From a virus: a DNA stretch of 34,956 bases. Positions 18,554 through 32,815 of the stretch are shown piece by piece. Where the stretch lies: IMG/VR virus record IMGVR_UViG_3300046000_011764, positions 1 through 34,956 of that record; one strand, written 5' to 3'. Position numbers and translations under genes: made by a program. The notes under the pieces are model-generated. The model searched no databases. It was not told the origin of the DNA and was given only the letters and a program-made list of their open reading frames with translations. How positions within the stretch are numbered: position 1 is the stretch's first letter; each line of letters starts with the position of its first letter.

Positions 18554-19612
18554 ATGCAAAATTTCACAACCATACCGTCGTCCGAGACGCTGACCAATTC
18601 ACTGGCGCCTCTGTTAAACAACGACAAGTCAGCGCTCTCTAATTCCAGCGGTACAGTTTTTCCAACGACTGAACTGCAGGTAGGGATGAAATGCTGGCGT
18701 ACAGATCAGCAAAAACTTTACCTGTTAACAAACGCTTCACCTGCGACATGGATTTTGCTTGCTGATTTAAGCAGCGGTACTACCAGTGTGGCAGCAGCTA
18801 TTGCTGCACAAAGCGCTAGTGATGCCACTGCACTTGGCGGTCAACTACCGAGCTACTACACCGACATCACCGCACGTTTGGGATTTACTCCGCTTAATAA
18901 GGCGGGAGACACAGCAACTGGACTGCAATATCAAGTACGAGCAGCCGGCGCCTTTCAATATTGGGGGCTGACAGCAGCGAACTATTTATCAGTCGGCCAA
19001 AGCTCGACTGGTGATGCCTATGTAAAGAATGCCTATCCAAGCAAGAGTTTGATTTTGGGAGCGGGTAACACTGACCATGTCGTCATAAACGCTGCAGGCG
19101 CTGTGGGGGCAGGTGGCGCTAACTTTGGTGCAGCTGGGCAGGTTTTGACCTCGGCTGGAAGTGCCGCACCTCCTGGTTGGCAGACTTTGCCTGAAGAGTT
19201 TGCCAGTGGGACAAGGCTGCTCTTTCAGCAAACCGCTGCACCGACTGGATGGACAAAAGATACGACGCACAACGACAAAGCACTTCGCGTAGTGAATGGT
19301 GCAGTGAGCTCGGGAGGCACCGTTGCATTTACTTCTGCATTCATATCGCAGGCTGTGAGTGGAACCGTTGGAAGCACGACTCTCGTTGAGAGCCAAATAC
19401 CTAGCCATACCCATACGCATCGTGGTTATGTTTCTGTAAAGGGAGGATCCGCTTGGCCTAATAGTGGCGGCGGCGGTGGTGCCACCATTAGTACCTCGGG
19501 ACTCACAACAACGGCGACAGGGGGCGGTGGATCGCACAATCACTCGTTTGCGGCCAACTCAATCAATCTCGCCGTTCAATACGTCGACGTCATTATCGCT
19601 ACCAAGAACTAA
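18554..19612 (+). CDS. Tail fibre protein with His-rich, Gly-rich tip
   Basis: 352 residues, starting right after the previous stop. The N-terminal third is low-complexity with the phage fibre motif DATALGGQLPSYYTDITARLGFTPLNKAG. The C-terminal third has the features of T4 gp12/collar-like fibre tips. These are LLFQQTAAPTGWTKDTTHNDKALRV, then PSHTHTHRG, a Gly-rich loop, and GGGGSHNHSF, and finally a beta-strand end AVQYVDVIIATKN. In gp12-type tips the HxH motifs bind metal inside the trimer. It is probably the receptor-binding fibre. No separate chaperone gene of known family was recognised downstream. Confidence 0.9.
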   Translation: MQNFTTIPSSETLTNSLAPLLNNDKSALSNSSGTVFPTTELQVGMKCWRTDQQKLYLLTNASPATWILLADLSSGTTSVAAAIAAQSASDATALGGQLPSYYTDITARLGFTPLNKAGDTATGLQYQVRAAGAFQYWGLTAANYLSVGQSSTGDAYVKNAYPSKSLILGAGNTDHVVINAAGAVGAGGANFGAAGQVLTSAGSAAPPGWQTLPEEFASGTRLLFQQTAAPTGWTKDTTHNDKALRVVNGAVSSGGTVAFTSAFISQAVSGTVGSTTLVESQIPSHTHTHRGYVSVKGGSAWPNSGGGGGATISTSGLTTTATGGGGSHNHSFAANSINLAVQYVDVIIATKN

Positions 19613-19614
19613 TC

Positions 19615-19911
19615 ATGGAAATAAAGCCAGGAAATTATTGCCCTCTTTTAAAAAAAGATTGCATCGGACTCCAATGCGCTTGGTTTACGCAGATGCGCGG
19701 CCACAACCCCAATACGGGGAAAGAAGTCGACGAATGGTCTTGTGCCATGACTTGGCTTCCAATACTTCTAATTGAAAACAGTCAGCAGCAACGATCGACT
19801 GGTGCGGCGGTAGAGAGCTTTCGGAATGAAATGGTGAAAGCCAATGAAAGTTCGCAGCAAGCTTTATTAGCAATGGCCGCTAAACAATCTGTCTTGGAGA
19901 TTACAGAATGA
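19615..19911 (+). CDS. Small Cys-containing protein, unknown function
   Basis: 98 residues beginning 2 bases after the fibre stop. The N-terminal half holds four cysteines: Cys9, Cys16, Cys21 (CPLLKKDCIGLQC) and Cys43. This suggests a small metal or Fe-S site, with Trp and Met near the last one. The C-terminal half is a predicted amphipathic helix rich in Gln, Ser and Ala. Similar short proteins with a Cys-rich start are common after fibre genes in environmental phages; no function is assigned. It overlaps the next gene by 4 bases (ATGA). Confidence 0.7.
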   Translation: MEIKPGNYCPLLKKDCIGLQCAWFTQMRGHNPNTGKEVDEWSCAMTWLPILLIENSQQQRSTGAAVESFRNEMVKANESSQQALLAMAAKQSVLEITE

Positions 19912-20207
19912 ATTCACCAATGAGAGTGACGATTATCCCGATAGATAAATTTTGCGCGGTGGATGGCGTGGGATTTGTCGGCGTCGACATAACAAGCATA
20001 GCGATTGATGTGCACGCTGTGCAGTGGTTCGGCACGTGGGGAGAGCAAGAGATTTTGGATCTCAAAACTGCTCGTATCGAAAGAAACGAAAAAATACAAA
20101 GCCTCGATGCCTATCAATCTGTTCTGAGTTCTTATTGGAAGATCAGGACTGCGCATGATGTGGCTGAGCGAGAAGCCATTAACGAGCAAACTATTATTGA
20201 GGTTTAG
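19908..20207 (+). CDS. Hypothetical phage protein, possible fibre-assembly-type
   Basis: 99 residues. An N-terminal beta part has the order VTIIPIDKFCAVDGVGF then DVHAVQWFGTWGEQE. It is followed by a charged helix with KTARIERNEKIQSLDAYQSVL. The VDG..(F/Y).. and VHAVQW..G pattern is frequent in small proteins next to tail fibres in myophages and siphophages. A role in fibre folding or attachment is possible but unproven. It overlaps the preceding gene by 4 bases and is followed 1 base later by the next start. Confidence 0.68.
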   Translation: MNSPMRVTIIPIDKFCAVDGVGFVGVDITSIAIDVHAVQWFGTWGEQEILDLKTARIERNEKIQSLDAYQSVLSSYWKIRTAHDVAEREAINEQTIIEV

Positions 20208-20208
20208 T

Positions 20209-20718
20209 ATGGATACAAAAGCTTTTCCTGCGTTTGGCTACATCATCATAAGGCACCAAATACTAAAGAATGAGGTATTGAATGATGAGATATACCCAGA
20301 TGGTCTTGTCAACGTGACTGTGCCGTTTGAAACGTGCTGGTTATATACAAAAGGATTGGTAAATCAAGTCAACATAGATACTCAAGAAATATCTGTGCGT
20401 GAACCCGGCTTCTGCAATGCGTTGATCAAAGAAACAGCCGGTATTTGGCGTGCAGATTTCAAAGAAGATTCGACTGTATTTTGTGTGCCGCAGCCTAAGC
20501 CTGCTAATCCATTATTTCTGCTGATTGACAATCTTCAAGTGTTTTCACTTAAAGCGGGGCAGAGCACTACCCTTGCACAAGGTACTAAGCTTTCTCTTTG
20601 CCAAGGTCAATTAAAAATTGGTAGCGCAACTATTCGCGATCTTCGGCAAATTGAATTTAAAAGTGGCAGTCGGTCAGTTACGGCAATCGAAGATTGTTTC
20701 GGTCTAATTTTTCCATGA
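20209..20718 (+). CDS. Unknown protein of the accessory block
   Basis: 169 residues from the ATG at 20209; the frame is open to 20155 but that part lies in the previous gene. No family was recognised. Most of the sequence looks beta-stranded (VNVTVPFETCWLYTKG, LFLLIDNLQVFSLKAGQSTTL), giving a cupin-like or jelly-roll impression, with four scattered Cys. No signal peptide or membrane helix is seen. It overlaps the desaturase start (ATGA), so it is probably co-translated with it. The region becomes visibly AT-richer here than the tail genes. Confidence 0.65.
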   Translation: MDTKAFPAFGYIIIRHQILKNEVLNDEIYPDGLVNVTVPFETCWLYTKGLVNQVNIDTQEISVREPGFCNALIKETAGIWRADFKEDSTVFCVPQPKPANPLFLLIDNLQVFSLKAGQSTTLAQGTKLSLCQGQLKIGSATIRDLRQIEFKSGSRSVTAIEDCFGLIFP

Positions 20719-21437
20719 AACAGTTTTTCAAAATAAATGTTTGGAACTCGTCGCTAGCTTGTCTTGCGAGTGAGTTTGCTGCTATTTATGCTATTTATCT
20801 TATTTTCAGCGGGTATGTGTCGTCACTTTGGTTGGCACTAACTTTTATTGTTTACATGGCTATACAGATTTCTGTATCTGTTGGTTTGCATCGGTATTAC
20901 ACGCACCGCACCTTTGAATGCGCAACATTCTGGCAGTATTTTTTTGCCCTTGTGGGTACTCTCAGTTTTCACGCAAGTCCGATTGCTTTTGTTCACGCGC
21001 ATCATACTCATCATAATTTTTCTGACACAGACAAAGACTCTCATATCGTAGGCTGGCAGTTTTTCTTTGTCAGGCGTTATAGAGTTCCTGCTGGTATGAA
21101 ATCAAGGGTGCTGATTCGACTTGCTCGCGATCCGTTTCAGTTATTCCTGCTTGATTACGGCGCATTACTTTGTTTCTTGATATTTGGGTTGCTTTACTTT
21201 ATTTCGCCGATTCTTTCTTTGTTTGGTTATGTTTTACCGGTGGCTTTATATTTTTTCTTCACGGCAGTACATCAAACGATTAGTCATTCGAGACATGGTC
21301 CTCGTGACATGCAGTGGTTGGAGTTACTTATGCCAACATGTGAATGGCGACATGCTTACCACCATAAATACCCGAATAGATGGGACTGGGGAAAGTTCGA
21401 CACGGGATCGCATTTAATACGTTTGATTAAAACATGA
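20715..21437 (+). CDS. Membrane fatty-acid (acyl) desaturase
   Basis: 240 residues from the ATG at 20715 (overlapping the previous stop). It has the three His boxes of membrane di-iron acyl desaturases. These are HRYYTH at 59-64, HHTHH at 96-100 and HAYHH at 213-217. Hydrophobic segments at about 15-55, 75-92 and 145-185 fit four membrane passes. The enzyme would insert a double bond into a fatty acyl chain using O2 and an electron donor that is not encoded nearby. It is shorter than most stearoyl-CoA desaturases (about 300 or more residues) but keeps all boxes, so it is likely active. It overlaps the following oxygenase gene (ATGA). Codon use is AT-rich compared with tail genes, a sign of recent transfer. 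Confidence 0.88.
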   Translation: MKQFFKINVWNSSLACLASEFAAIYAIYLIFSGYVSSLWLALTFIVYMAIQISVSVGLHRYYTHRTFECATFWQYFFALVGTLSFHASPIAFVHAHHTHHNFSDTDKDSHIVGWQFFFVRRYRVPAGMKSRVLIRLARDPFQLFLLDYGALLCFLIFGLLYFISPILSLFGYVLPVALYFFFTAVHQTISHSRHGPRDMQWLELLMPTCEWRHAYHHKYPNRWDWGKFDTGSHLIRLIKT

Positions 21438-21982
21438 ATTATTTTAGTCAAATTGCGCTTCAATTTGAGGTGCCAGACTTTGATGCGTCCTCATGGCCGA
21501 TGCCCCAAGTTGCAGACGTGCCGGATAGAGCGCGCTACAAATATACGTTGTGGGAAAAAGAAATAGCTCCACCAACACCGCTTCATGTCTATGCAATCCC
21601 AGAAACCATTGCAAATAAATTGCTCTCGCAGCTACCACGAGCAGTGCTGGACCGTGAAGTACCAGGTGTTTTTTACATGAAAATGGAAAAGCCACATCTT
21701 GACTCAACCGTACCGCCACACGTTGATATTGGAAGACGTTCGGCAATCAATGTTTACATCAACTGTGCACAAGAAACCACCGAGTTTTTTGAGGCTGATG
21801 AAGAAACGAAAAGCCTTACTTCTCAGGGAAAATTTGTCGCAAAAGAAGGCGAGGCATGGTTATTGAACGTTGCTAAGCCTCATGCAGTTCGAATGTCTCG
21901 CACTAATTTACGCTCGTGTATTTCATTTAGCTTTCGCAGGCTTAGATTTTCTGAGTTGGTAAGTTTGCTTCCTACTTCTTAA
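21434..21982 (+). CDS. 2-oxoglutarate/Fe(II)-dependent oxygenase-like protein
   Basis: 182 residues with a complete facial-triad pattern: His96-Val-Asp98 (PPHVDIGRRSAINVYIN), His150 (NVAKPHAV) and Arg160, ten residues after the second His, as expected for 2-oxoglutarate binding. The surrounding strands FYMKMEKP and SCISFSF fit a double-stranded beta-helix. The family includes hydroxylases of amino acids, lipids and nucleobases; the substrate here is unknown. It overlaps the desaturase by 4 bases and is followed 3 bases later by a second oxygenase-like gene, so the three are probably made together. Confidence 0.75.
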   Translation: MNYFSQIALQFEVPDFDASSWPMPQVADVPDRARYKYTLWEKEIAPPTPLHVYAIPETIANKLLSQLPRAVLDREVPGVFYMKMEKPHLDSTVPPHVDIGRRSAINVYINCAQETTEFFEADEETKSLTSQGKFVAKEGEAWLLNVAKPHAVRMSRTNLRSCISFSFRRLRFSELVSLLPTS

Positions 21983-21985
21983 AAA

Positions 21986-22690
21986 ATGATGAACTGCTCA
22001 CTTCATTACTTGTTTCCTACTGCTGTGGGTATGTTTAAAAGCGACAGCCACGAGACGTTCAAGCGTGTGTTTTTTGACCGAATGCCCGAGCACTGTATTA
22101 CACACGAAAGTGGTCAAGGTCTAATTTCCGGCGAAAGTTCAGGAAAGGTATACCTGCATACCGATGAGGCATTTAGATCATTTTTTGAATTTGTGTCGCG
22201 GTGTATAGAAAGCTATCTCGATCAGTTAGCTTATGACCGATCACGTGTCGATATCCACATCGTAAAAACATGGATCAGTGCTACTGATAATCGAACCGTG
22301 ACTCCTACGCATGCACACGGTACTAGCCACCTGTCGTTCGTCTACTACATGAATATGCCTAAAGAAGCTGATGCGATCGCGTTTCAAATTCAGGCTTCAC
22401 CTAACGAGCCGTATTACGGCGCGTTTTCAGAGGGCACCAATCGGCAGCGTTCAATGATCCTCGAACGCAATGCTCTCAATGCTAATCAATCGATCATGCT
22501 TGTTGAAGAAGCGCAGCTACTGGTTTTCCCAAGCCATCTTCAGCATGGCACAGTGAAAATGGGGGACATGGGAAATGAACAGCGCATTGCCTTATCTGGC
22601 GATGTGCTGCTAGTTTTTAATGAAGAAGAGCCGAACTATGCGACTGGTGTATTTGACCCGCGCACCTGGCGATCATTTGGAAATTTGTAA
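21986..22690 (+). CDS. Putative 2OG-Fe(II) oxygenase (PF13759-type)
   Basis: 234 residues resembling the 2OG-FeII_Oxy_5 family often seen in environmental phages. Motifs are THAHGTSHLSFVYYMN (His109 and His111 as ligand candidates), VFPSHLQHGT (His187) and QRIALSGD (Arg200). The N-terminal YLFPTAVGMF is also typical (family proteins often open with LFPTPV). No signal peptide is present. It is the last gene of the accessory block; a terminator hairpin follows 41 bases later. The substrate is unknown. Confidence 0.75.
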   Translation: MMNCSLHYLFPTAVGMFKSDSHETFKRVFFDRMPEHCITHESGQGLISGESSGKVYLHTDEAFRSFFEFVSRCIESYLDQLAYDRSRVDIHIVKTWISATDNRTVTPTHAHGTSHLSFVYYMNMPKEADAIAFQIQASPNEPYYGAFSEGTNRQRSMILERNALNANQSIMLVEEAQLLVFPSHLQHGTVKMGDMGNEQRIALSGDVLLVFNEEEPNYATGVFDPRTWRSFGNL

Positions 22691-22731
22691 ATTTATCGAG
22701 TAACAATCAATCTCACCGTAATCCCTCTTTG

Positions 22732-22769
22732 ATGCCTGCCAAGAATTTTTTTGGTAGGCATTATTTTTT
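22732..22769 (+). terminator. Intrinsic terminator between accessory block and lysis cassette
   Basis: An 11-bp stem (ATGCCTGCCAA / TTGGTAGGCAT with one G-U pair; loop of 8) is followed by TATTTTTT. GGAGA of the next gene starts at the next base and its ATG is at 22780. This repeats the hairpin, T-run, Shine-Dalgarno layout seen before the capsid and small tail genes. Confidence 0.85.
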
Positions 22770-22779
22770 GGAGAAATGA

Positions 22780-23070
22780 ATGGCAACAGAATATGACAAT
22801 CATGACTTTTTGAATCTTCGGCCTGAAGATCTCGATGAACTACTGATTCGTGCAGCTGAAAAGGGAGCTGAGCGTGCGTTGGCAGCACTTGGGCTGGAGA
22901 ACGGCCATGCGGCAAAAGATATCCGGGATCTGCGAGGACTCATCGAAGCTTGGCGGCAAGCCAGACAAACCGCTTGGCAGACTCTAATTAAGTTACTGAC
23001 CACAGGCATTCTAGTTGCTCTGATTGTGGGCGCAAGTATTAAGTTGAAACTCTACGGGGGCGTCCAATGA
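22780..23070 (+). CDS. Small lysis-region membrane protein, DUF6127-like
   Basis: 96 residues with GGAGA five bases before the ATG. The first 65 residues are charged and helical (LNLRPEDLDELLIRAAEKGAE, then DIRDLRGLIEAWRQARQTAW). One hydrophobic segment at about 68-88 is followed by a short basic end. This layout, a soluble helix bundle with a C-terminal membrane anchor, resembles DUF6127 proteins found next to holins in phages of alpha- and betaproteobacteria. It may be a holin partner or antiholin; this is inferred from position. It overlaps the holin gene by 4 bases. Confidence 0.72.
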   Translation: MATEYDNHDFLNLRPEDLDELLIRAAEKGAERALAALGLENGHAAKDIRDLRGLIEAWRQARQTAWQTLIKLLTTGILVALIVGASIKLKLYGGVQ

Positions 23071-23543
23071 TCGAGACGCTTCTTGGCGGTTTGTTGGGTG
23101 GCGCTTTCCGTTTGGCTCCTGAGATATTGAAGTGGATCGACCGAAAAGGCGAGCGTGGCCACGAACTGGCAATGCAGGATAAGGCCATTGAATTCGAGAA
23201 GCTGCGCGGAGCCCAACGTATGGCCGAAATCGGTGCTGCATCCGATGCGGCATGGAATACCGGCGCCATAGAGGCCCTAAAAGAAGCTGTGGCTGCTCAA
23301 GGGGGGCCCTCGGGCGTTAAGTGGGTTGATGCGCTCTCAACCAGCGTCCGTCCCGTGATCACTTACTGGTTCATGGCACTTTACTGCACAGCTAAGGCAG
23401 CGGCATTCGCAGCCGCAGTCACTGCCGGGGCGACCTGGGGTGTGGCTATCCTTAATGCGTGGACGGGTGCCGATCAGGCGTTATGGGCTGGGGTGCTGAA
23501 TTTCTGGTTTCTGGGTCGCGTGTTTGATAGGGTGCGTCCGTGA
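23067..23543 (+). CDS. Holin, 3TM type (GTA_holin_3TM-like)
   Basis: 158 residues. It opens with a hydrophobic Gly-rich stretch (LLGGLLGGAFRLAPEI) and then a charged cytoplasmic-type loop containing WIDRKGERGHELAMQDK. Two membrane segments follow at about 95-123 and 137-153. The pattern matches the 3TM holins of gene transfer agents and many proteobacterial phages. It would make the membrane lesion through which the following endolysin, which has no export signal, reaches the cell wall. It overlaps both neighbours by 4 bases (ATGA upstream, GTGA downstream). Confidence 0.85.
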   Translation: MIETLLGGLLGGAFRLAPEILKWIDRKGERGHELAMQDKAIEFEKLRGAQRMAEIGAASDAAWNTGAIEALKEAVAAQGGPSGVKWVDALSTSVRPVITYWFMALYCTAKAAAFAAAVTAGATWGVAILNAWTGADQALWAGVLNFWFLGRVFDRVRP

Positions 23544-23995
23544 CTGCTGTGCCGCAGGCAGCGATTGAGCTTGCAAAAAGCTTTGAGGGCTTTTGCCGAG
23601 TACCGAAGAACGATCCTGTTCGAGCGTATCCGTACATCTGCCCGGCGGGTTACTGGACAATCGGATACGGCCATCTTTGCGATCCAAAGCATCCGCCGAT
23701 CACTGAGGCTGAAGGTGAAGTTTACCTTTCCAACGATCTGCAAACGGCACTAGCCGCGACACTGCGTTATTGCCCGGTTCTTACTAATGAGCCAGAAAAT
23801 CGACTCGCCGCCATTGTGGACTTCACGTTCAATCTTGGGGCGGGCCGGCTGCAGACATCAACGCTACGAAGGCGGATTAACCAAAGGGACTGGGCTTCGG
23901 CAAAACAAGAGCTGCGCCGATGGGTCTACGGGGGTGGAAGAGTACTACCCGGCCTCGTATTGCGTCGTGATATAGAAGCTAATTTGCTGGGTTGA
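23540..23995 (+). CDS. Endolysin, GH24 lysozyme family
   Basis: 151 residues, GTG start in the holin stop. T4-type muramidase: catalytic Glu16 in SFEGF, then Cys34 and Thr40 in CPAGYWTIGYGH. The usual Asp of the E-D-T triad is a Cys here, a known natural variant in this family, and the Glu-to-Cys spacing is longer than usual because of a KNDPVRAYPY insertion. The C-terminal part shows the family segments (LAAIVDFTFNLGAGRLQTSTL and ELRRWVYGGGRVLPGL). There is no signal peptide or SAR segment, so export depends on the holin. No Rz/Rz1 spanin pair was found after it. Confidence 0.93.
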   Translation: MTAVPQAAIELAKSFEGFCRVPKNDPVRAYPYICPAGYWTIGYGHLCDPKHPPITEAEGEVYLSNDLQTALAATLRYCPVLTNEPENRLAAIVDFTFNLGAGRLQTSTLRRRINQRDWASAKQELRRWVYGGGRVLPGLVLRRDIEANLLG

Positions 23996-24048
23996 TTAAT
24001 AAGTAGCTTCTTGCCTATCTTTTCGCGCAACCTTGGAATCCCAAACAA

Positions 24049-24071
24049 GATTCGAATCCCCGGTCACACCA
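24049..24071 (+). other. Candidate attR: tRNA 3'-end-like sequence
   Basis: TTCGAAT (T-loop-like), CCCC and GGTCACACCA follow each other like the 3' end of a tRNA gene, only 54 bases after the endolysin stop. The 5' partner strand of a T-stem is absent, so no full tRNA is present, as expected for a prophage attachment-site remnant. The spacing of the acceptor part is one base off a perfect tRNA, so the call is weak. Confidence 0.3.
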
Positions 24072-24219
24072 AAAAACGATGTATCACGACCTGAGCAGGT
24101 TAGTGCTACGACAGTTTCTAGCCCTCCAAGACTTACCCTTCTAACCCCTTCTGCATAAGCCATGGCGATGACTCGAGCAGCACAACGGGCAAGGGAAGTT
24201 GCTCTGACCGGTCTGTATC

Positions 24220-24420
24220 TCACAGATCCTTGACGAATTCGGACCATCTGGGAATTTTCTGGATCTTATCGATTGCCAGGACATGAAATTGCCCGAGCGG
24301 AAGGTACCTAGCCTTGGCTCGAGCCTGTGTCCATTTGGCGATAATACATTTTTCAATGGCTTTTGCCCCAGGTTTTGGCTGGACGATGCTGGCGGCATCA
24401 TTGAATGGGTCGACGGCCAC
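24220..24420 (-). CDS. Unassigned short frame, possible gene fragment
   Basis: 66 codons from a GTG at 24420. The composition looks protein-like (DPFNDAASIVQPKPGAKAIE at the start; an FHVLAIDKIQKIPRW stretch near the end). It lies directly downstream of the broken second cusF gene and, by chance or descent, in the same frame after its stop codon. There is no ribosome site and no recognised family. It may be the remnant end of a gene removed when the prophage or the copper cluster arrived. Confidence 0.25.
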   Translation of the reverse strand: MAVDPFNDAASIVQPKPGAKAIEKCIIAKWTQARAKARYLPLGQFHVLAIDKIQKIPRWSEFVKDL

Positions 24421-24432
24421 CGTCGGCTTAGA

Positions 24433-24768
24433 TTACTTCGCCAATTGAATGTCTGTGACGAAAAAGACACCGTCTAATTTATTAGCGACAAATTTGACTT
24501 TATCACTAGCTTTGAATGTTTCCAATAAAGTGGCATTTCGAATGGGAAAAACCATAGTCATACGAGGCATGTCCAGATTTTTTAGCTCGCCATGCTTGAT
24601 CGTCATCTTTTTGTTTTCTCGATCGACCTTTCTAACCTCGCCATCTGCCATATTATCAAAGGACATAACGCCCGCAGGCTTTTGGGGTTTATCCTCCGCA
24701 TGGACCGTCTCAGATCAAGTAACGGAAGCCACCAGCAAGGCTGCAAAAAGATTTTTAGAAGGTTTTAT
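24433..24768 (-). pseudogene. Second cusF-like copper chaperone, broken start and signal peptide
   Basis: The mature part is a clear CusF domain: DGEVRKVDRENKKMTIKHGEL, then MPRMTMVF, with the Cu(I) ligands His and two Met at the family spacing. Upstream in the same frame lies a normal signal peptide pattern (KPSKNLFAALLVASVT, then SETVHA before EDKPQ). Two lesions are seen. The start position with a good GAGGA seven bases away is ATA (24766-24768) instead of ATG, and codon 24715-24717 is TGA inside the signal peptide. The remaining ATG at 24666 would give only a cytoplasmic protein. It is last in the copper cluster, 28 bases after the cupredoxin gene. Confidence 0.75.
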
Positions 24769-24796
24769 AAAGTATTCCTCAAATGAATTTTCTAAA

Positions 24797-25318
24797 TTAA
24801 TGTTTGTGCGCCGGGTCGTGAGCAGGAGCATATCCCTTGGCCTTACTTACCAACACAGCGCCCTTCATACCAGCGTCGTAGTGTCCAGGTTGCATGCATG
24901 CAAAATTAACTTTACCCACCTTTGTGAATTGCCAAATGATCTCACCAGATTTTCCTGGTTGTACCGATATTTGGTTCTCATCAGCGTGCTCCATTTCAGG
25001 ATTTTTCTTCATTACTTCAGAGTGTTCTTTTAGCTCTTTTTCTGTGCCCAGCACCATTTCGTGCTTCACCTTGCCAGAGTTTTTAACAACGAATTTAATA
25101 GTTTCACCTTGTTTGACCGTGATGCTTTGTGGATTGAAACGCATGCTGTCAAGCATGTCGACTGTGATGGTTCGCTTGGCATCGACAGCTTTACCCGGTT
25201 TACCAATGGCATCTGAGTCTGCATGGCCGCCTGCGTGATTGCCAGTTGCAAAACTCAGTGTGGCGGTCGATACGAGCAAAACAGTCGATATAGCCGCAAT
25301 GATAAGTTTAAATTTCAT
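24797..25318 (-). CDS. Periplasmic cupredoxin (plastocyanin/azurin-like)
   Basis: 173 residues with an N-terminal signal peptide (KFKLIIAAISTVLLVSTATL, cleavage near 24). The type-1 copper ligands are all present: His86 (KHEMVLG), Cys141, His146 and Met151 in CMQPGHYDAGM. An insertion rich in Glu, Lys and Met (about 93-112) and a His-rich tail (HDPAHKH) may hold extra copper. Members of this group are commonly encoded next to multicopper oxidases and CusF in Burkholderiales and probably bind or shuttle periplasmic copper. It lies 30 bases after the oxidase gene, probably in one operon. Confidence 0.92.
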   Translation of the reverse strand: MKFKLIIAAISTVLLVSTATLSFATGNHAGGHADSDAIGKPGKAVDAKRTITVDMLDSMRFNPQSITVKQGETIKFVVKNSGKVKHEMVLGTEKELKEHSEVMKKNPEMEHADENQISVQPGKSGEIIWQFTKVGKVNFACMQPGHYDAGMKGAVLVSKAKGYAPAHDPAHKH

Positions 25319-25348
25319 GATATTTCGTATCAGGGAGTTAAAAAAATT

Positions 25349-26761
25349 TCAATGGCCAGAGTGGCCTGAGGGTTTACGTATTTGAACTTCTATCTCTTTT
25401 TGGGATGGCGTTGCCTGCGGCATTGACTGCCCGCTCTCAGCTTTAAATCGTGCAGGCTCAGGCATAGAACCGTTCCACTCAAAAGCAACACTTCCCGGTG
25501 GATGTTTGTACCAATCAGGATTTTTATAGTTTCCTGGCTTTTGGTCTTTGCGCACCTTCAGCACCGAGAACATACCGCCCATTTCAACACCGCCAAAGGG
25601 GCCTTGGCCCGTCATCATTGGAACGGTGTTGTCTGGAAGCGGCATTTCCATCTCGCCCATATCTGCCATGCCGCGTTCGCCCATCACCATGTAGTCGGGA
25701 ATTAAATTGGTGATTTTTTTCGTGACACCTCGGTGGTCTACGCCAATCATGGTCGGCACATCGTGACCCATGGCGTTCATGGTGTGGTGGCTTTTGTGGC
25801 AATGAAATGCCCAGTCCCCCTCTTCATCTGCCACAAACTCAATTTGACGCATTTGTCCCACCGCTATATCCGTGGTTACTTCAGGCCAGCGCCCTCCTTT
25901 AGGTGTTGGACCACCATCCGTTCCTGTTACTTGAAACTCATGGCCGTGCAAATGGATAGGGTGGTTAGTCATAGTGAGGTTACCGATCCGAATCCGCACC
26001 TTATCGTTCAAGCGTACATTCAAGCTGTCAATCCCTGGAAAAATACGGCTGTTCCATGTCCATAAATTGAAATCCAGCATAGTCATGATCTTAGGCGTAT
26101 AGCTACCCGGGTCAATGTCATAAGCGTTCAACAGAAAACAGAAATCACGCTGAACCTCATCAATGAGAGGATTCTTTTCTTTGGGGTGGGTGACCCAAAA
26201 TCCCATCATACCCATAGCCATTTGTGTCATTTCGTCGGCATGCGGGTGGTACATGAAAGTTCCTGGTCGACGCGCGACAAACTCATAGACAAAGGTTTTT
26301 CCGGGCTCGATGCCAGGCTGGTTGAGCCCAGTGACACCGTCCATGCCATTAGGCAGTCGTTGACCGTGCCAATGCACACTGGTGTGCTCTGGTAGTTTGT
26401 TGGTCACAAATATACGGACACGGTCCCCTTCAACCACTTCAATGGTCGGTCCTGGACTTTGACCGTTGTAGCCCCAGAGGTGGGCTTTCATACCAGGTGC
26501 CATTTCACGCACCACGGGTTCAGCGACCAAATGAAACTCCTTGATACCTTGGTTCATGCGCCATGGCAGGGTCCAGCCGTTTAGGGTGACTACGGGGTTG
26601 TACGGGCGGCCAGTGTTGGGTACCAGCGGGGGCATAGTGTCGGGTAGAGCTTGGCTGATGGGTTCGGGTAGAGCTGCCATCGCCACTCTGCTGACGGTCG
26701 TGACTGCAACGGCGGCAGTCACTGCACCGGCGCCGCGTAAAAAATTTCTTCGTGAATTCAT
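25349..26761 (-). CDS. Multicopper oxidase for copper resistance (CopA/CueO-like)
   Basis: 470 residues with a twin-arginine signal (SRRNFLRGAG, then a hydrophobic Ala/Val stretch), so it is exported folded. The four copper-binding clusters are present: HWH at 130-132, HPH at 172-174, HPIHLHGH at 267-274, and HCHKSHH at 320-326. It probably oxidises Cu(I) in the periplasm. After residue 350 comes a Met-rich segment (MADMGEMEMPLPDNTVPMM) and a His/Ser end, likely for extra copper binding. It is shorter than classical 600-residue CopA. It lies 58 bases after the TolC-type gene. Confidence 0.92.
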   Translation of the reverse strand: MNSRRNFLRGAGAVTAAVAVTTVSRVAMAALPEPISQALPDTMPPLVPNTGRPYNPVVTLNGWTLPWRMNQGIKEFHLVAEPVVREMAPGMKAHLWGYNGQSPGPTIEVVEGDRVRIFVTNKLPEHTSVHWHGQRLPNGMDGVTGLNQPGIEPGKTFVYEFVARRPGTFMYHPHADEMTQMAMGMMGFWVTHPKEKNPLIDEVQRDFCFLLNAYDIDPGSYTPKIMTMLDFNLWTWNSRIFPGIDSLNVRLNDKVRIRIGNLTMTNHPIHLHGHEFQVTGTDGGPTPKGGRWPEVTTDIAVGQMRQIEFVADEEGDWAFHCHKSHHTMNAMGHDVPTMIGVDHRGVTKKITNLIPDYMVMGERGMADMGEMEMPLPDNTVPMMTGQGPFGGVEMGGMFSVLKVRKDQKPGNYKNPDWYKHPPGSVAFEWNGSMPEPARFKAESGQSMPQATPSQKEIEVQIRKPSGHSGH

Positions 26762-26819
26762 GTTGTTCTCTCTTTAGGCGGCATTGCTGGCGGCCATGCC
26801 GCCCATTGGTGGGATCAAG

Positions 26820-28205
26820 CTAGATTTTGCCAATCAAGGCCATTTCCAAGTCAGCCTGGGCTATCCAGAAGTCACGCAGTGCCTCAATGGCGCTATTTAC
26901 GCTGGTGATCTGGATACGGGCATCGGCCAGCAGTTCAAAGACACCAATCAGCATCCCGTTGTAGCGAAGCTGGTTTTCTTCGCTGATTCGCTTTTTGATT
27001 GGCACGATCTCATTGCGGTAGTGACGGGCAATGTCGTAGCTGGAGTGATAGCCCTGATAAGCTTCGCGCACCTCAGAACGGGCATTGATGGCCATCTGCG
27101 CGACTACGTTGACCGACTGCATGTAAAGCGCCTCGGCCTTGGCGACCTTAGCCGTACCCCAATCAAACAACGGCAACTGTAAAGACACTTCGTAGCCTTT
27201 CTTGTAGCCAGAGTCCGCTGTACCTTCGAGAACCCTGGCCGGGCCGAACTCCAAAACGTTGATGAAGCGTGTGGCCTTGGTCAGCCCCAGGTTCTTGGCC
27301 AGCGCTTCCGTTTGCAAGCGTGCGGCCTGCACATCCAGCCGCTGGGCCATCGCCATTTTCTCAACGTTGGGCAACTCGTTGGGTGCTTGTGGTAGGTCTG
27401 GAAGGCGTTCAGGCAAGGTGAACTGTGTTTGCTGTCCCCATAAGCCCAGCAGACGCGTCAAACGTTCGCGGCTGGCTACTGCGATTTTTTCTGCTCGTGC
27501 CAATCCAAGCGCGGCATCGGCATAGAAGTCTTGTTCTCGCGCTTGGTGTAACTTATTAAAGTTGCCAACCTTAGTCATGCGACGAGCAAGTTCGGCGCTG
27601 GCTTCGGCGGCTTGGCGCACCTGCTTGGCATAATGCACCGATTGATCGGCAGCCACGGCAGTGTAGTAAGCCTTGCGCGCCTCAGAAGCCAGGCGCAGCA
27701 TTTCCAAACTCACCATACGCTGGGTCTGTTCGAAGCGCCGCCGCTCGATGGCACTAGCCTTTGGCATCGTCACCAAGGAGAACAGGTTGAGGGTGATCGC
27801 CTGCTCGATCTTGTAGTCGCGTCCGTCTAGGCCTGGCTTACTAGCCCGAAGCATGGAAAAGCTAGGATTGGGCAAGCGACCGGCTTGCACTAGGTCAGAT
27901 TCGCTGATCGCCAGCTCGGCAAAAGCTGCTTGAAGTCCCCGGTTGTTCAACAAGGCTACTTGTACGGCATCGTCGACACTTAGCGGGTTGCCCAGCAATT
28001 CAGTGACACGTTTGGTGATGGTTTCTTGATCTGCCTCGGATTTGACCCATGTGACATCCTTGCCAAGCCGTTTGTGAGCAGTGTTAGCAACGTTGCCAAA
28101 TCCGCCGTCTTGGCTGAATGAGGCGCAGCCAGCCAACAGGAAAATGACCAGGCCCGAAACGGCTACACCCGTTACGCGCCTCTGTGTGGTGTCCATGGAG
28201 TTCAT
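26820..28205 (-). CDS. TolC-family outer-membrane efflux lipoprotein (CusC-like)
   Basis: 461 residues; ATG at 28205 preceded by GGAGG at 6-base spacing. The N terminus has a lipoprotein signal (LVIFLLAGCASF, lipid on the Cys of LAGC). The body shows two outer-membrane-efflux repeats of long helices (for example ASAELARRMTKVGNFNKL and a later ISEENQLRYNGMLIGVFELL). It would form the outer-membrane channel of a metal efflux complex. No inner-membrane pump or adaptor gene is in the window, so the partner must lie elsewhere. It overlaps the 117-residue gene by 4 bases. Confidence 0.92.
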   Translation of the reverse strand: MNSMDTTQRRVTGVAVSGLVIFLLAGCASFSQDGGFGNVANTAHKRLGKDVTWVKSEADQETITKRVTELLGNPLSVDDAVQVALLNNRGLQAAFAELAISESDLVQAGRLPNPSFSMLRASKPGLDGRDYKIEQAITLNLFSLVTMPKASAIERRRFEQTQRMVSLEMLRLASEARKAYYTAVAADQSVHYAKQVRQAAEASAELARRMTKVGNFNKLHQAREQDFYADAALGLARAEKIAVASRERLTRLLGLWGQQTQFTLPERLPDLPQAPNELPNVEKMAMAQRLDVQAARLQTEALAKNLGLTKATRFINVLEFGPARVLEGTADSGYKKGYEVSLQLPLFDWGTAKVAKAEALYMQSVNVVAQMAINARSEVREAYQGYHSSYDIARHYRNEIVPIKKRISEENQLRYNGMLIGVFELLADARIQITSVNSAIEALRDFWIAQADLEMALIGKI

Positions 28206-28555
28206 GGCTGGCCTCCGTGGTGTCCAGCATGGTCTTTGTCCGGTGCAGATGCAGGCACGGTTGCCGGTGCTTCGGGTTGAAGGGATTCTTTGCCATAAGC
28301 CCGCCAGCCACCGATCTTGGCAGCCAGATCGTTACTGCTCTTCCATGCTGCGACTGGCTCTTCGGACAGTGGCAGGTAATTTGTAAAAGATGATCGGTAT
28401 AAAAGCGCAGGGACCGGCGCATCGGCGTTTGCCGGATCGACCAGTTGCGGCTTTTTAGCGTTGCTTGGGGTCTGTGCTTGGGCAAATGTCAAAGTCAGCA
28501 ACAGTGTGGCTGGCACGATGCCTCGTACCCATTTATGCAGGATGAAAATTTGCAT
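28202..28555 (-). CDS. Small exported protein of the copper cluster, unknown function
   Basis: 117 residues with a signal peptide (IVPATLLLTLTFAQAQ, cleavage near 28). The middle contains a conserved-looking stretch (LLYRSSFTNYLPLSEEPVAAW and IGGWRAYGKE), also known from proteins beside TolC and multicopper oxidase genes in betaproteobacteria. The end is Pro/Ala-rich with a His pair (HAGHHGG). The function is unknown; an accessory role in periplasmic copper handling is inferred from position. An AAGGA site precedes the ATG, and the stop overlaps the TolC-type start. Confidence 0.78.
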   Translation of the reverse strand: MQIFILHKWVRGIVPATLLLTLTFAQAQTPSNAKKPQLVDPANADAPVPALLYRSSFTNYLPLSEEPVAAWKSSNDLAAKIGGWRAYGKESLQPEAPATVPASAPDKDHAGHHGGQP

Positions 28556-28829
28556 GAATTCCTTATGTAATCATTTGAACTCACCCACACGCTTGGCGTA
28601 CGGGAACGGTATGGCAGCGATTGCTCGACTCTATCGTGTTCAGTGGTGTGACCAACACATGTACTTGATAGCCGAGTTGGAACTCAAGGGCCAGCCCACC
28701 ATCGACGCAGTCGGCAGCCACCGAAATGGAATAAGAGGTTTTAATGGGTATTCTCTTTAAGGTGGCACCGGCACGAGGGGATAGAAACCCGGCCAGCGCA
28801 AAAGGCAACATTGTTTGTAGCGATTTCGA
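28556..28829. other. Intergenic gap in the copper cluster
   Basis: 274 bases between the first cusF gene and the 117-residue gene. A - strand frame at 28581-28811 has no ribosome site or recognisable family and is not called. No obvious terminator was found, so read-through from the cusF promoter is possible. A small gene may have been lost here. Confidence 0.5.
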
Positions 28830-29189
28830 TTACTCGGTTTTCTCGATGGAGCGCAACACATAACCACCATCGACCTTATCGGGGATGAACCGAATCTTAT
28901 CGGCAGCTTGGAATCCGTCAAGCTGCTTCGGTGACTTCAGGCGGAAATTCATCGTCATTCCCCCCATACCGTATTTCTTGATTTCCTCGTGCTTGATCGT
29001 GACCTTGTTGTTCTCGAGATCGATCTTGCGGATCACGCCAGAGACCTTCGTATTTTCGTATTCGTTAGCATCGCCATTGACATGGTGCTCATGGTCTTTG
29101 TTGTGCTCGTGCTCTTGTGCAAATGCCGGCAAGCCCGTCAGCGCGGTCGCAGCCAGCAGGGCGGCGGCAAGGGTGCTTAGTTTCTTCAT
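28830..29189 (-). CDS. cusF: CusF-like periplasmic copper-binding protein
   Basis: 119 residues from the ATG at 29189 (GGAG six bases upstream); a TTG four codons earlier is rejected. Signal peptide KKLSTLAAALLAATAL with cleavage near 24 (AFA-QE). A His-rich linker (EHEHNKDHEHH) is followed by the CusF barrel: VSGVIRKIDLENNKVTIKHEE, then MGGMTMNF. The Cu(I) ligands at CusF spacing are His67, Met78 and Met80; the Trp that caps the site in E. coli CusF is Met75 here. It is divergent from copR and first gene of the - strand copper cluster. Confidence 0.9.
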   Translation of the reverse strand: MKKLSTLAAALLAATALTGLPAFAQEHEHNKDHEHHVNGDANEYENTKVSGVIRKIDLENNKVTIKHEEIKKYGMGGMTMNFRLKSPKQLDGFQAADKIRFIPDKVDGGYVLRSIEKTE

Positions 29190-29304
29190 CGAAATCTCCA
29201 ATCATTATTAATTTTGAAAATGAACCCGGCGGGTTGCTATGAGTTACACCGCCAGATTTCAACGAAGTATCCAAGACCCGCCCCAACAGCTACCTGACCG
29301 GCAC

Positions 29305-29320
29305 ATTACAAAAATGTCAG
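29305..29320. promoter_or_regulatory. Candidate CopR/CusR binding box
   Basis: ATTACA-AAAA-TGTCAG is an imperfect inverted repeat (TTACA/TGTCA, one mismatch) in the 191-base region between the divergent cusF and copR genes. CopR-type regulators bind related TTACA-n4-TGTAA-like sites. It lies 61 bases before the copR start and about 116 bases before cusF. Found by eye only. Confidence 0.5.
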
Positions 29321-29380
29321 TTTTTTGCTGTCCTCGGGCAAAATAGGCACACTACCCACTGTGGCTACATGGAGCATCTT

Positions 29381-30049
29381 GTGAAGATTTTGATTGTCGA
29401 AGACGAACCGAAAACGGGCGATTACCTGCGAAAAGGGTTGCGCGAGGCCGGCTTTGTGGTCGAGCTAGCGCAGAACGGTATCGATGGTTTACATTTGGCG
29501 CTTGAGGGAGACCATGACCTCGCCATCTTCGACGTGATGCTGCCAGGTATAAATGGCTGGCAGTTGCTGGACACGGTACGCCGCGCGGGCAAGACCTTCC
29601 CCGTCCTGTTTCTCACAGCCCGCGATCAGGTAGAAGACCGCATCAAGGGGCTGGGACTCGGGGCTGATGATTACCTGGTCAAGCCGTTCTCGTTTGCCGA
29701 ATTGCTGGCCCGGGTTCGAACGGTATTGCGGCGCGGGCGTCCCGCGCAAGAAATGACGACCTTGCAATTTGCCGACCTCGAGCTGGACCTGATCAAACGG
29801 CGTGTCACGCGCCATGGGCAGAGAATCGGCCTGACCGCTAAGGAATTCGGGCTACTCGAACTACTGCTGCGCCGACAAGGCGAAGTACTGCCGCGGTCCT
29901 TGATTGCATCGCAGGTCTGGGACGTGAACTTCGACAGCGACACGAACGTAATCGAGGTCGCGGTTCGCAGGCTACGCGCAAAAATCGATGACGGACATGA
30001 CCGCAAGTTGATTAATACTGTGCGTGGTATGGGCTACGTGATCGAATGA
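29381..30049 (+). CDS. copR: Copper response regulator, OmpR/PhoB family (CopR/CusR-like)
   Basis: 222 residues from a GTG at 29381 that has GGAG six bases upstream; this gives the family N terminus [16 protein letters not shown]. The ATG at 29369 would add four residues. Receiver domain: acidic pair Glu7-Asp8, phospho-acceptor Asp51 (IFDVMLPG), Lys in VKPFSFAEL. The C-terminal winged helix has the heavy-metal regulator features ([44 protein letters not shown]). It is 10 bases before the kinase gene, with which it forms the regulatory pair. Confidence 0.93.
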
Positions 30050-30059
30050 CGAGGGTGAC

Positions 30060-31448
30060 ATGAACCTTCCCCGATTTTCGCTGACCACGCGACTAACGAC
30101 TTTTTATTCGTTGGTATCGACGGCTGTTCTGTTTGGCATGGGCTTGTTGGTCACTGTACTGGTCGAACGACATTTCGAGGAAATGGACCAGCGTTTTCTA
30201 GACGATAAAATCGAGCTCGTTCTAGAGTTGAGCAAACATGCGTCGTCGAATGAAGATTTACGATTGCGGCTCACTGATGCGCTCAATCATCACGCAGATC
30301 TGCACGTCCTGGTTCGTGATGAAAAAGGGATAATCCTGTTCGTTATGCCGGACCAGCTTCCGATCGAGGAGCTGGGTGATGATCAGGTACTCGAAACCGG
30401 CGGCATGGCCAGTAAAGGCCATATTTACCGCGTTCGCTCAACCGATACTGTTAGAAATTTTTCGCCATACGGATCACTACGCGTCGTTACAGCATTTGAT
30501 ACGGAGAGACATGCCGGCTTTCTTAGTAGCTTTCGTCAAACACTTTGGTGGTATGGCAGCGCTGTGGCTATTCTCAGTGGCCTGCTCAGCTGGTGGGCTG
30601 CGCGTAGTGGTCTTGCTCCGCTTGGCAGGATGCGCGATCGTGCGCTGGCCGTCACCGCCAACAAGCTTGACCACCGCATGCCGGTGGAGGCCGTGCCGAT
30701 CGAGATGGCCTCACTGGCGAAATCTCTAAATCAGATGTTTGAGCGGCTCGAACAAGATTTCAATCGGCTTTCAGAATTCTCGACCGACATCGCTCATGAA
30801 TTGCGCACGCCAATCAGTAATCTGATGACGCAGACGCAGGTCGCCCTTGCCCAGCATCGCTGCGCCGACGAGTACCGCGATATTCTTGCCTCGAATGCCG
30901 AGGAGTTTCAGCGACTGGCGCGCACAGTATCGGAGATGCTTTTTCTGGCCAAGGCGGAGAACATACGTTCGCTACCAAATACTGAAATCATTGAGCTTGC
31001 CGATGAGGTCAAGTCGTTGCTGGATTTTTACGAGGCGCTAGCTGAGGAAACAGGAATCACTTTCCGGCTTGAGGGAGAGGGAAGAATGACGGGCGACCGA
31101 CTGATGGTACGCCGCGCCTTAAGCAATTTGCTGTCGAACGCGCTGCGGCATGCCGATGCCGACAGCACGGTCAATGTAGGTATCAGATCAGTGGCAGATC
31201 AATTGACTGTAACAGTGTCCAACAAAGGCGAGCCTATCGATCCGGCAGCTATCCCTCGCTTATTCGACCGATTTTTCCGAGCTGATAGATCACGTCGTCA
31301 AATCGATGCAGAAGGTGCTGGCTTAGGCTTGCCGATTGTCGCGGCGATTATGCACGCGCACGGTGGCACTGCCAGCGTTCAATCGATTAGCCGCACAACC
31401 GCAGTCAAATTGATTTTCCCAGCAAATGCAAGGCTGGATCAGATTTGA
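30060..31448 (+). CDS. copS: Heavy-metal sensor histidine kinase (CopS/CusS-like)
   Basis: 462 residues with GAGGG four bases before the ATG. Transmembrane helices at about 15-37 and about 160-180 enclose a periplasmic sensor of some 120 residues. Then come a HAMP region, the phospho-acceptor His246 (AHELRTPISNL), an N-box (ALSNLLSNALRHAD), and a G-box (GAGLGLPIVAAIMHAHGG). The family (TIGR01386-like) senses Cu/Ag and phosphorylates CopR. The probable targets are the divergent cusF cluster and its own operon. The gene is followed by about 270 bases of non-coding sequence before the IS. Confidence 0.93.
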   Translation: MNLPRFSLTTRLTTFYSLVSTAVLFGMGLLVTVLVERHFEEMDQRFLDDKIELVLELSKHASSNEDLRLRLTDALNHHADLHVLVRDEKGIILFVMPDQLPIEELGDDQVLETGGMASKGHIYRVRSTDTVRNFSPYGSLRVVTAFDTERHAGFLSSFRQTLWWYGSAVAILSGLLSWWAARSGLAPLGRMRDRALAVTANKLDHRMPVEAVPIEMASLAKSLNQMFERLEQDFNRLSEFSTDIAHELRTPISNLMTQTQVALAQHRCADEYRDILASNAEEFQRLARTVSEMLFLAKAENIRSLPNTEIIELADEVKSLLDFYEALAEETGITFRLEGEGRMTGDRLMVRRALSNLLSNALRHADADSTVNVGIRSVADQLTVTVSNKGEPIDPAAIPRLFDRFFRADRSRRQIDAEGAGLGLPIVAAIMHAHGGTASVQSISRTTAVKLIFPANARLDQI

Positions 31449-31718
31449 GTCAATGCAAATTTTTCCGTTAATGTTGGCAGCTGACTGGACGCAGGATGCG
31501 CATTTTTGGAAACTGGTGATGAATAAGTTTTCAATTTTGAATTAAGAACGGTTCTATAACGTTATCCGCCAAAATGAAAAAGACTTGCCCACGGCGCCGT
31601 GGATATGTCTAGCTCCTCGAACACAAAAATTCAGACAGTCCCTGGACCGTCAACACAAAGTCTTCTAAACTGCTGGGCAGGCCTTGAGGCGGCCTCAGGT
31701 CCCGCCCCACGCGGGGCT
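31449..31718. other. Non-coding stretch between copS and the IS element
   Basis: No gene is supported. The stretch holds a perfect 14-bp palindrome (31589-31602, CCACGGCGCCGTGG) and, next to the IS, a TGAGGC-G-GCCTCA palindrome (31685-31697) and a GCCCC-ACGC-GGGGC hairpin (31704-31717). Their roles are unknown; the last two may form part of the IS target. Confidence 0.6.
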
Positions 31719-31725
31719 TAATGAG

Positions 31726-31738
31726 ATGGTCACCCTCC
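31726..31738 (+). repeat. Left inverted repeat of the IS1111-type element
   Basis: ATGGTCACCCTCC, identical to the reverse complement of 33069-33081. It lies 52 bases before the transposase start and inside a longer, unused open frame. Confidence 0.85.
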
Positions 31739-31789
31739 ACCCCACGAGCGGTTACGCTATGGGGTGGTTTCATTTCAGCGGAGGCCATC

Positions 31790-32815
31790 ATGGAAGACGT
31801 TACCCTTATTGGCATCGATTTCGGCAAGCACACCTCCCACCTGCACGCGCAGGATCGCGCCGGTCATGCGGTCTGGCGAAAGAAGTGCAACCGGTCGCAA
31901 TTGATGATCCTGCTGGCCAATACACCGCCCTGTACCGTTGTCACGGAAGCCTGTGCCGGCGCGCACCAGATGGCGCGTGATCTCATTCGATTCAATCACA
32001 CTGTCAAGCTGATCTCGCCACAGTTCGTGCGACCCTTCGTCAAGACCAACAAGAACGACTTCATCGACGCCGAAGCAATTTGCGAAGCCGCTTCACGGCC
32101 TTCGATGCGGTTTGTGACGCCCAAGACCGAAGCCCAGCAATGCCTGGGCGCCTGGCACCGGGTGCGCGAATCGTTGGTCTGCGACCGGGTACAAGTCACG
32201 AACCAGATCCATGCGTTTCTGATGGAATTCGGTATCAGCCTGCCCAAGGGAGCAGCCGTCATCAAGCGCCTGCCTTCCGTGCTGGCAGAACAGCGCCTGC
32301 CAGCACGGCTAGTCATCTTGCTCGAGCGCTTGCGTGATCAGTACCGGGCGCTGGACGCGCAGATTGCCGAGATCGAACGAGACCTGGCGGCGCAATTACG
32401 CGAGGACGAGTCGGGGCGCCGTTTGCTAAGTGTTCCGGGCATCGGCCCGGTGACAGCCAGCTTGCTGGCGGCGGAGATGGGCGATGGCAAGCAGTATGGC
32501 TGTGCGCGCGACTTTGCCGCTTCGCTGGGATTGGTGCCACGCCAGTACAGCACTGGCGGGCGAGCGCATCTGATGGGCATAAGCAAGCGCGGCGACAAGA
32601 ACCTGAGACGCTTGCTGGTCCAATGCGCTCGCGTGTACATGCAGAATGTGGCTCGGCAGACCGGCCGGCTGGCTGATTGGGTCCGAGACCTGTTGCAGCG
32701 ACGGCATTCGAATGTGGTGGCGTGCGCCGTGGCCAATAAGTTCGCCCGGATCGTGTGGGCTATGACGGCCAGGCGCGTCGATTTCGAGCGCATCGGGGAG
32801 GCCCTGCCAGCCTGA
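31790..32815 (+). CDS. IS110-family (IS1111 group) transposase/recombinase
   Basis: 341 residues from the ATG at 31790, which has GGAGG five bases upstream; the frame is open to 31721 but crosses the inverted repeat. The N-terminal RuvC-like DEDD domain is complete: Asp10 (GIDFGKHTS), Glu53 (TEACAGAHQ), and Asp90 and Asp93 (NKNDFIDAEA). The C-terminal Tnp domain has LLSVPGIGPVTASLLAAE and then the catalytic Ser region RQYSTGGRAHLMGISKRGDK. These recombinases are guided by an element-encoded bridge (seek) RNA. The gene appears intact, so the element may still move. Confidence 0.94.
   Translation: MEDVTLIGIDFGKHTSHLHAQDRAGHAVWRKKCNRSQLMILLANTPPCTVVTEACAGAHQMARDLIRFNHTVKLISPQFVRPFVKTNKNDFIDAEAICEAASRPSMRFVTPKTEAQQCLGAWHRVRESLVCDRVQVTNQIHAFLMEFGISLPKGAAVIKRLPSVLAEQRLPARLVILLERLRDQYRALDAQIAEIERDLAAQLREDESGRRLLSVPGIGPVTASLLAAEMGDGKQYGCARDFAASLGLVPRQYSTGGRAHLMGISKRGDKNLRRLLVQCARVYMQNVARQTGRLADWVRDLLQRRHSNVVACAVANKFARIVWAMTARRVDFERIGEALPA

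Follow-up and report, generated by a model that had tools for sequence, protein, structure and literature searches.

A conserved cassette of a desaturase, 2-oxoglutarate oxygenases and a predicted cupin-like protein is an exchangeable allele behind a prophage tail fibre

Phage-borne desaturases and 2-oxoglutarate (2OG) oxygenases have so far been catalogued singly as auxiliary metabolic genes, with guessed roles in membrane fluidity and nitrogen signalling. The viral desaturases of cyanophages and sea-ice phages have been read in print as raising membrane unsaturation and fluidity (PMC7300359, citing Roitman 2018), and 2OG oxygenases of cyanophages have already been published (Sullivan 2010, PMC3037559). 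Here, we analysed a stretch of 34,956 nucleotides from an IMG/VR virus record (IMGVR_UViG_3300046000_011764), hereafter the window, in which a block of four genes at 20209-22690 forms a cassette of a desaturase, two 2OG oxygenases and a further small protein. The block lies in the prophage part, which extends to ~24.0 kb, with host DNA beyond. We found no earlier description of this cassette, or of the pairing of a desaturase with an AspH-type hydroxylase, in the open-access literature.

The four genes, all on the plus strand, encode P1 (169 aa, 20209-20718), P2 (240 aa, 20715-21437), P3 (182 aa, 21434-21982) and P4 (234 aa, 21986-22690). They are tightly packed: ATGA overlaps join P1 to P2 and P2 to P3, three bases separate P3 from P4, and P1 starts one base past the stop of the preceding small gene, s99. 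A first-pass annotation, made from the letters of the window, had described this packing and had proposed a co-inherited phage accessory block of iron- and oxygen-dependent enzymes. Both proposals gained ground: the predicted enzymes are supported by homology and conserved metal ligands, and the set recurs in independent phages under purifying selection. Neither a lack of co-occurrence elsewhere nor a loss of catalytic residues in relatives, two outcomes that would have told against the block, was seen. The further idea in that annotation, a lipid or surface modification that might block superinfection, stays speculative.

Scans of IMG/VR and GTDB with profiles of P4, P3 and the desaturase located cassettes at L001, which is near-identical to the window, and at L085/L086/L087, L088, L089/L090, L091, L095, L096 and L100, the last cut by a contig end. 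P1, the desaturase, one or two copies of P3, and P4 are present in at least six phage allele groups. Every cassette whose sequence is complete has homologues of all four proteins, and in all loci the cassette stands directly behind the fibre gene and the two small genes s98 and s99, with P1 as its first gene in every case. The order of the remaining genes varies: P1-P2a-P3-P4 in the window and L001, P1-P2a-P3-P2b-P4 with two desaturases in L091, P1-P3-P2b-P4 in the L085 and L089 groups, and P1-P3a-P3b-P2b-P4 in L088, L095 and L096, with the same order in L100 up to the contig end. All eight loci returned by a scan with the P2b-type desaturase were cassettes. Between the most distant groups P1 and P3 retain 27-40% identity, and P2a, the type in the window, is ~25% identical to P2b; P4 is the best-conserved member, at 59-86% between allele groups. 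The ratio of nonsynonymous to synonymous substitution rates was 0.08-0.31 in comparable pairs, which exclude P2a because its only close pair is identical, and on this ratio the cassette genes appear to be maintained as working proteins. Chance open reading frames were rejected by the same ratio and by the conservation.

P2 is predicted, from profile matches and its histidine boxes, to be a minimal integral-membrane di-iron desaturase. Its histidine ligands are H59xxxxH64, H96xxHH100, H191 and H213xxHH217, and the three boxes (HxxxxH, HxxHH, HxxHH) together with the extra ligand histidine are invariant in eight homologues. The P2 sequence alone gave no desaturase match in Pfam; PF00487 was matched by six of the eight family members, and a profile built from the eight homologues matched the acyl-CoA desaturase 4ymk over its full length (E=7e-26). 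Hydropathy places P2 in the membrane. The cyanophage and sea-ice phage enzymes (vFAD; PMC7300359) are likewise integral-membrane di-iron proteins with three histidine boxes and kinship to SCD1 (4ymk/4zyo), whereas P2 is a minimal 240-aa enzyme found in a fixed multi-oxygenase cassette behind a fibre, in a betaproteobacterial siphoprophage. P2 is ~22-29% identical to the other viral desaturases found. A recent theft of a host gene was rejected, as the other desaturase of the Polynucleobacter-labelled metagenome-assembled genome (MAG) described below scored only 86 bits against the cassette profile, compared with 398 for the cassette copy. A match in 'Acinetobacter phage MD-2021a' was set aside since it is flanked by bacterial chromosomal genes; its contig (CAKLQH020000002.1, L122) carries trp, baeSR and btuB genes and resembles a bacterial chromosome. 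Another viral contig, L019, holds five desaturase-family genes in tandem.

The desaturase could be an ordinary auxiliary metabolic gene that raises membrane unsaturation or fluidity, for cold, lysis or assembly, with the other genes as unrelated passengers. Such is the printed interpretation of the cyanophage and sea-ice phage enzymes (PMC7300359). Against it, the set persists through changes of order, duplications (P3a/P3b, P2a/P2b) and allele swaps, and its best-conserved member is P4 rather than the desaturase; we regard this explanation as unlikely.

P3 is a putative AspH/PF05118-type 2OG-Fe(II) hydroxylase. Its AlphaFold model (predicted local distance difference test score, pLDDT, 86) found AspH (5apa, E=3e-5) as the best match in the Protein Data Bank (PDB), and its iron triad and 2OG-binding arginine (H96xD98...H150...R160) are invariant in homologues. 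P3 thus has the fold and HxD...H...R ligands of the AspH/LpxO/OlsC-type hydroxylases (PF05118), but has no Pfam match of its own: PF05118 was matched, weakly, by five of 12 homologues (best member E=6.5e-5), and the L095 copy fell below the gathering cut-off (21.5 vs 22.6 bits). The AspH-type fold class includes the lipid hydroxylases LpxO and OlsC.

P4 belongs to the PF13759/TIGR02466/phrog_81 2OG-Fe(II) oxygenases. It lies above the PF13759 gathering cut-off (47.1 bits vs 27), also matches phrog_81, and stays under the curated cut-off of TIGR02466 in NCBIfam (47.2 bits vs 62.5). The first-pass annotation had given P3 and P4 alike an HxD/H...H motif. This holds for the 182-aa protein, whereas the 234-aa protein has HxH...H...R (H109xH111...H187...R200), which is normal in its family; the same HxH type occurs in cyanophage relatives and in PDB 2rg4. 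All catalytic histidines, including the desaturase boxes and the HxD...H...R of P3, are kept in relatives. Among the T4-like cyanophage oxygenases of this family (phrog_81/PF13759; PMC3037559), P4 is 31% identical to the P-HM1 protein and shares HxH...H...R with it. However, the P-HM1/P-HM2 homologue is located near mazG rather than behind a fibre, and no desaturase or P1 partner has been reported for it; as it adjoins mazG, it was rejected as a case with cassette neighbours.

P1 is a conserved fourth member of the cassette with a predicted cupin-like fold, a status that the first-pass annotation had overlooked. It has no match in Pfam, PHROG or NCBIfam. Its model is all-beta, resembling a cupin or cyclic-nucleotide-binding (CNB) half-barrel, with an overall pLDDT of 65 and a confident C-terminal half (pLDDT ~88). 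In the PDB the model matched CNB domains, pirins and HutD weakly (template modelling score, TM, 0.3-0.5), and it matched uncultured phage proteins better (TM 0.71). Across eight P1 homologues there is no invariant histidine. Because a conserved histidine is absent, a binding or structural role seems likelier than a catalytic one, and a metal-dependent cupin enzyme was ruled out for lack of a conserved metal-binding histidine. Homology of P1 to the gene that comes next in P-SSM2, S-SCSM1 or CRP-361 was also ruled out, since those genes are s99 homologues.

The desaturase and the AspH-type hydroxylase also travel together outside this cassette. Clustering at 85% identity gave 31 other lineages of viral desaturases for comparison. 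A P3 homologue of the Asp_Arg_Hydrox type lay within five genes of the desaturase in 24 of them and was adjacent in 16, with 4.6 expected from the background of the same contigs (P ~2e-6; the lineages are partly related). In profile comparisons P2 matched the desaturase cluster of these lineages (C0) with E=1e-60 and P3 matched their AspH cluster (C1) with E=6e-10. Because an AspH-type gene lies within five genes in 24 of 31 lineages, the pairing appears to be general in aquatic phages. Pyridoxal phosphate (PLP) aminotransferase-like genes and TauD were each found nearby in 19 of the 31. In a Pfam tally of flanking versus more distant genes, TauD accounted for 17/150 and 1/142 and Asp_Arg_Hydrox for 22/150 and 11/142 (P=0.07 for the latter alone). 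Flavin mononucleotide (FMN) reductase, methyltransferase and GNAT genes accompany the marine clusters as well.

The one cultured example found, Pelagibacter phage Mosig EXVC030M, has a cluster that runs into tail-fibre genes. Desaturase clusters are flanked by AspH genes of Mosig and by two Mtd_N adhesin genes. Mosig and the 24 uncultured lineages have homologues of the window's desaturase and AspH-type hydroxylase as neighbours or a short distance apart. Unlike the cassette, Mosig-type clusters also contain TauD, aminotransferase, FMN reductase and methyltransferase genes, and no P1 or P4 orthologues were detected in them. In L036, L049, L059 and others (clusters C0-C12), desaturase, AspH, TauD, PLP-aminotransferase-like, FMN reductase, peroxiredoxin, methyltransferase and GNAT genes stand together; these large aquatic-phage assemblies look like biosynthetic clusters.

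The same prophage, locus and host flank were found in the Polynucleobacter-labelled MAG (JAIPCX010000001.1, L095), 98.7% identical across 22076-32687 with the host flank included, which allowed a direct comparison of two cassettes in nearly the same phage. The DNA of the two prophages is 95-100% identical up to ~19300 and from ~22500 on, and 100% identical in the host DNA beside the prophage. Between these points identity drops to 46-80% in the fibre tip, 53-80% in s98/s99 and 30-53% in P1-P3, and rises from 61 to 91% along P4. Only the fibre tip, s98/s99 and the cassette differ between the prophages, which elsewhere are 97-100% identical, and their P1-P3 genes, at about 40-50% identity, are unrelated at the DNA level. 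The difference between the window and L001 is confined to the stretch from the fibre tip to mid-P1, with identity from 20497 on. These two patterns make the fibre tip and the cassette a single hypervariable stretch whose breakpoints are of two kinds or more. At the 3' end of the tail operon, the cassette therefore behaves as an exchangeable allele, and its swapping had gone unseen in the earlier annotation.

Fibre-tip type and cassette type do not co-vary, the tips being ~65-79% identical between groups whatever the cassette, and co-variation of the two was rejected on these identities. Since tip identity does not follow cassette type, fibre tip and cassette are neighbours in exchange rather than demonstrably coupled partners. 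The AT-richness of the block had been taken as a sign of separate acquisition. The block does have 43.1% GC, compared with 50.4% for the phage part. However, because the cassettes of L095, L088, L096 and L089 have 49-51% GC and only the window, L085 and L091 alleles are AT-rich, composition is not general evidence of separate acquisition.

Such a locus might be a hotspot for morons, where recombination drops cargo at the 3' end of the fibre operon and co-occurrence reflects linkage instead of a joint pathway. The hypervariable fibre tip next door and the breakpoints in conserved flanks are what a hotspot would give. Yet every group has the same four families, although sequence identity is 25-40% and the genes are rearranged, and a homologous desaturase-AspH pair occurs in unrelated phages, which makes mere linkage improbable.

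Upstream of the cassette lies the gene for a tail-fibre/collar protein of 352 aa (18554..19612, plus strand), whose N-terminal 222 aa are identical to the sister prophage and whose C-terminal 130 aa (from ~19300) are hypervariable. Its tip contains SHTH and SHNH motifs, which recall the HxH motifs that bind metal in T4 fibre tips, and gp128 of cyanophage S-SCSM1 has a similar tip. The fibre gene is followed on the same strand by s98 (19615..19911), a small conserved gene recognised by its homologues, and by s99 (19908..20207), which was recognised by a hidden Markov model (HMM) match and varies between alleles. Homologues of s98 also lie 3' of tail fibres in P-SSM2, S-SCSM1 and roseophage CRP-361, and those of s99 include CRP-361 gp41 (annotated as a tail assembly chaperone; HMM E=9e-17) and PSSM2_030 (annotated as a tail fiber protein; E=5e-7). 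In P-SSM2 and S-SCSM1, 2OG oxygenases directly adjoin the s98/s99 homologues, one in the former (PSSM2_031) and several flanking tail fibres in the latter (gp121, gp123, gp124, gp129, gp131 and gp132). In CRP-361, fibre, s98 and s99 are present without an annotated oxygenase at that place.

Three further arrangements were seen at fibre loci. S-SCSM1 (L125, 1500-10522) has at least six 2OG-oxygenase-type genes around a short tail fibre and the s98/s99 homologues. In P-SSM2 (L124, 2437-6470), a collagen-like tail-fibre gene with G-P-x repeats stands a few genes 5' of a PiuC-type 2OG hydroxylase gene, and the two are plausibly a prolyl-hydroxylase/substrate pair. In L087 (4069-6060), a second collar-type fibre gene comes right after the cassette and is followed by two further 2OG-oxygenase-like genes; each fibre there seems to have its own oxygenase set.

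An intrinsic terminator with a 15-bp stem and a T-run (22730..22769, plus strand, z=-6.05) closes the cassette, and its stem is kept through compensatory changes in L088 and L096. No promoter-like sites above chance were found in the block region. With respect to the features of a classical prophage moron, a terminator is therefore present and promoter-like sites occur at chance level only. The layout is most simply read as late expression of the block at the tail operon's end. Expression in the lysogen appears less likely because the block ends the late tail operon and has no internal promoter above chance.

How could such a cassette act? We favour late modification of an envelope lipid, to which we assign a probability of about 0.35, because the desaturase is membrane-embedded, is a homologue of acyl desaturases and is paired with a class that includes lipid hydroxylases. 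The cassette would be an exchangeable oxidative-tailoring unit, transcribed late as the final part of the tail operon. P2 would desaturate an alkyl or acyl chain at the inner membrane, the P3-type enzyme or enzymes and P4 would add hydroxyl groups to that molecule or to a neighbour, and the metal-free cupin-like P1 may bind or present substrate or product. A membrane enzyme together with soluble hydroxylases fits a membrane substrate. The product would most likely be a modified envelope lipid (lipid A, an aminolipid or a phospholipid) made shortly before lysis. The lipid change could alter the surface seen by the variable fibre tip and so reduce re-adsorption to debris or infected cells; alternatively, it could alter membrane behaviour at lysis.

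Several observations weigh against an envelope-lipid product. P2 lacks the SCD1-type NxxxH motif, the Asn position being Gln in P2 and Thr or Asn in relatives; this motif is a feature of the sub-type and does not define the family. The independence of fibre-tip and cassette types counts here too. The best small-molecule match of the P3 profile, albeit weak (E=0.014), was L-proline cis-4-hydroxylase, a hydroxylase of a free amino acid, and the TauD, aminotransferase, FMN reductase and methyltransferase genes that accompany the marine desaturase-AspH pairs are more suggestive of amino-acid or small-molecule chemistry than of tailoring of acyl chains. Finally, 2OG oxygenases beside fibres without a desaturase, in P-SSM2, S-SCSM1 and at the second fibre of L087, point to the fibre itself.

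The proline hydroxylase match and the marine neighbours, GNAT included, would suit a small-molecule pathway in which the substrate of the desaturase is an amino-acid-like or other metabolite, the hydroxylases decorate it, and the product inhibits host enzymes or competitors. The dihydrorhizobitoxine desaturase RtxC acts on such an amino-acid-like metabolite, and the cupin-like P1 could bind a ligand. The Polynucleobacter-type cassette, however, has no aminotransferase or synthase gene, and the homology of its desaturase is to acyl-CoA desaturases, so that we consider this pathway doubtful.

The oxygenases beside fibres raise, as a tentative possibility, modification of the virion: the 2OG enzymes would hydroxylate side chains of the fibre tip, or of a chaperone, late in assembly, P1 would be a fibre-associated structural protein, and the desaturase would be an added or separate activity. 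The cassette always follows fibre, s98 and s99 in the late operon, the cyanophage and L087 arrangements repeat the association, and the AspH genes of Mosig and the two adhesin genes flank desaturase clusters. On the other hand, it is hard to see what an integral-membrane di-iron desaturase would do to a soluble fibre, cassette type does not predict the fibre-tip sequence, and CRP-361 has fibre, s98 and s99 with no oxygenase annotated beside them.

Envelope-lipid modification and the fibre linkage may meet in a broader and speculative picture, in which several aquatic phage families share a fibre-linked oxidative tailoring system, with a desaturase and AspH core and lineage-specific partners, that remodels the host envelope or the virion and whose alleles are swapped to track receptor changes. 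A fixed, exchangeable set beside a receptor-binding fibre, together with the recurrent pair, turns scattered annotations into a single testable question: which molecule the pair modifies, and whether the modification decides which phages infect or the fitness of progeny particles. The near-identical prophages with different cassettes offer a natural, ready comparison.

If the MAG label is reliable, this temperate siphophage has a freshwater member of the Burkholderiales as its host. Further left on the L095 contig (L115), a resolvase-type serine recombinase gene and a LexA-like repressor gene were recognised by eye from the sequences. A further genome of this MAG's family, G158, shares the phage right flank of the window, its contig ending inside P4; altogether, cassette-type P4 was found in two of the 294 genomes of the family. 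In a Bacteroidetes-labelled MAG (L096/G002), two portal-gene copies are 72-74% identical to that of this burkholderial-type phage, and because of this resemblance its phage contigs are probably mis-binned.

Downstream of the cassette, the conserved right flank (22780..23995, plus strand) encodes a DUF6127/phrog_10540 protein, a phrog_6637 protein and a lysozyme; in DNA its first gene is 95-98% and the others 95-100% identical to the sister prophage. With the fibre and two small genes (18554-20207) on one side and the genes for the 96-aa protein, the 158-aa protein and the lysozyme on the other, the block sits between fibre and lysis genes, where the first-pass annotation had placed it. Rfam and tRNA scans of the window gave no matches. 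The host flank carries a copper-handling locus with multicopper oxidase, cupredoxin-like and efflux-like genes, together with an IS110-family transposase (24433-28555 and 31721-32815).

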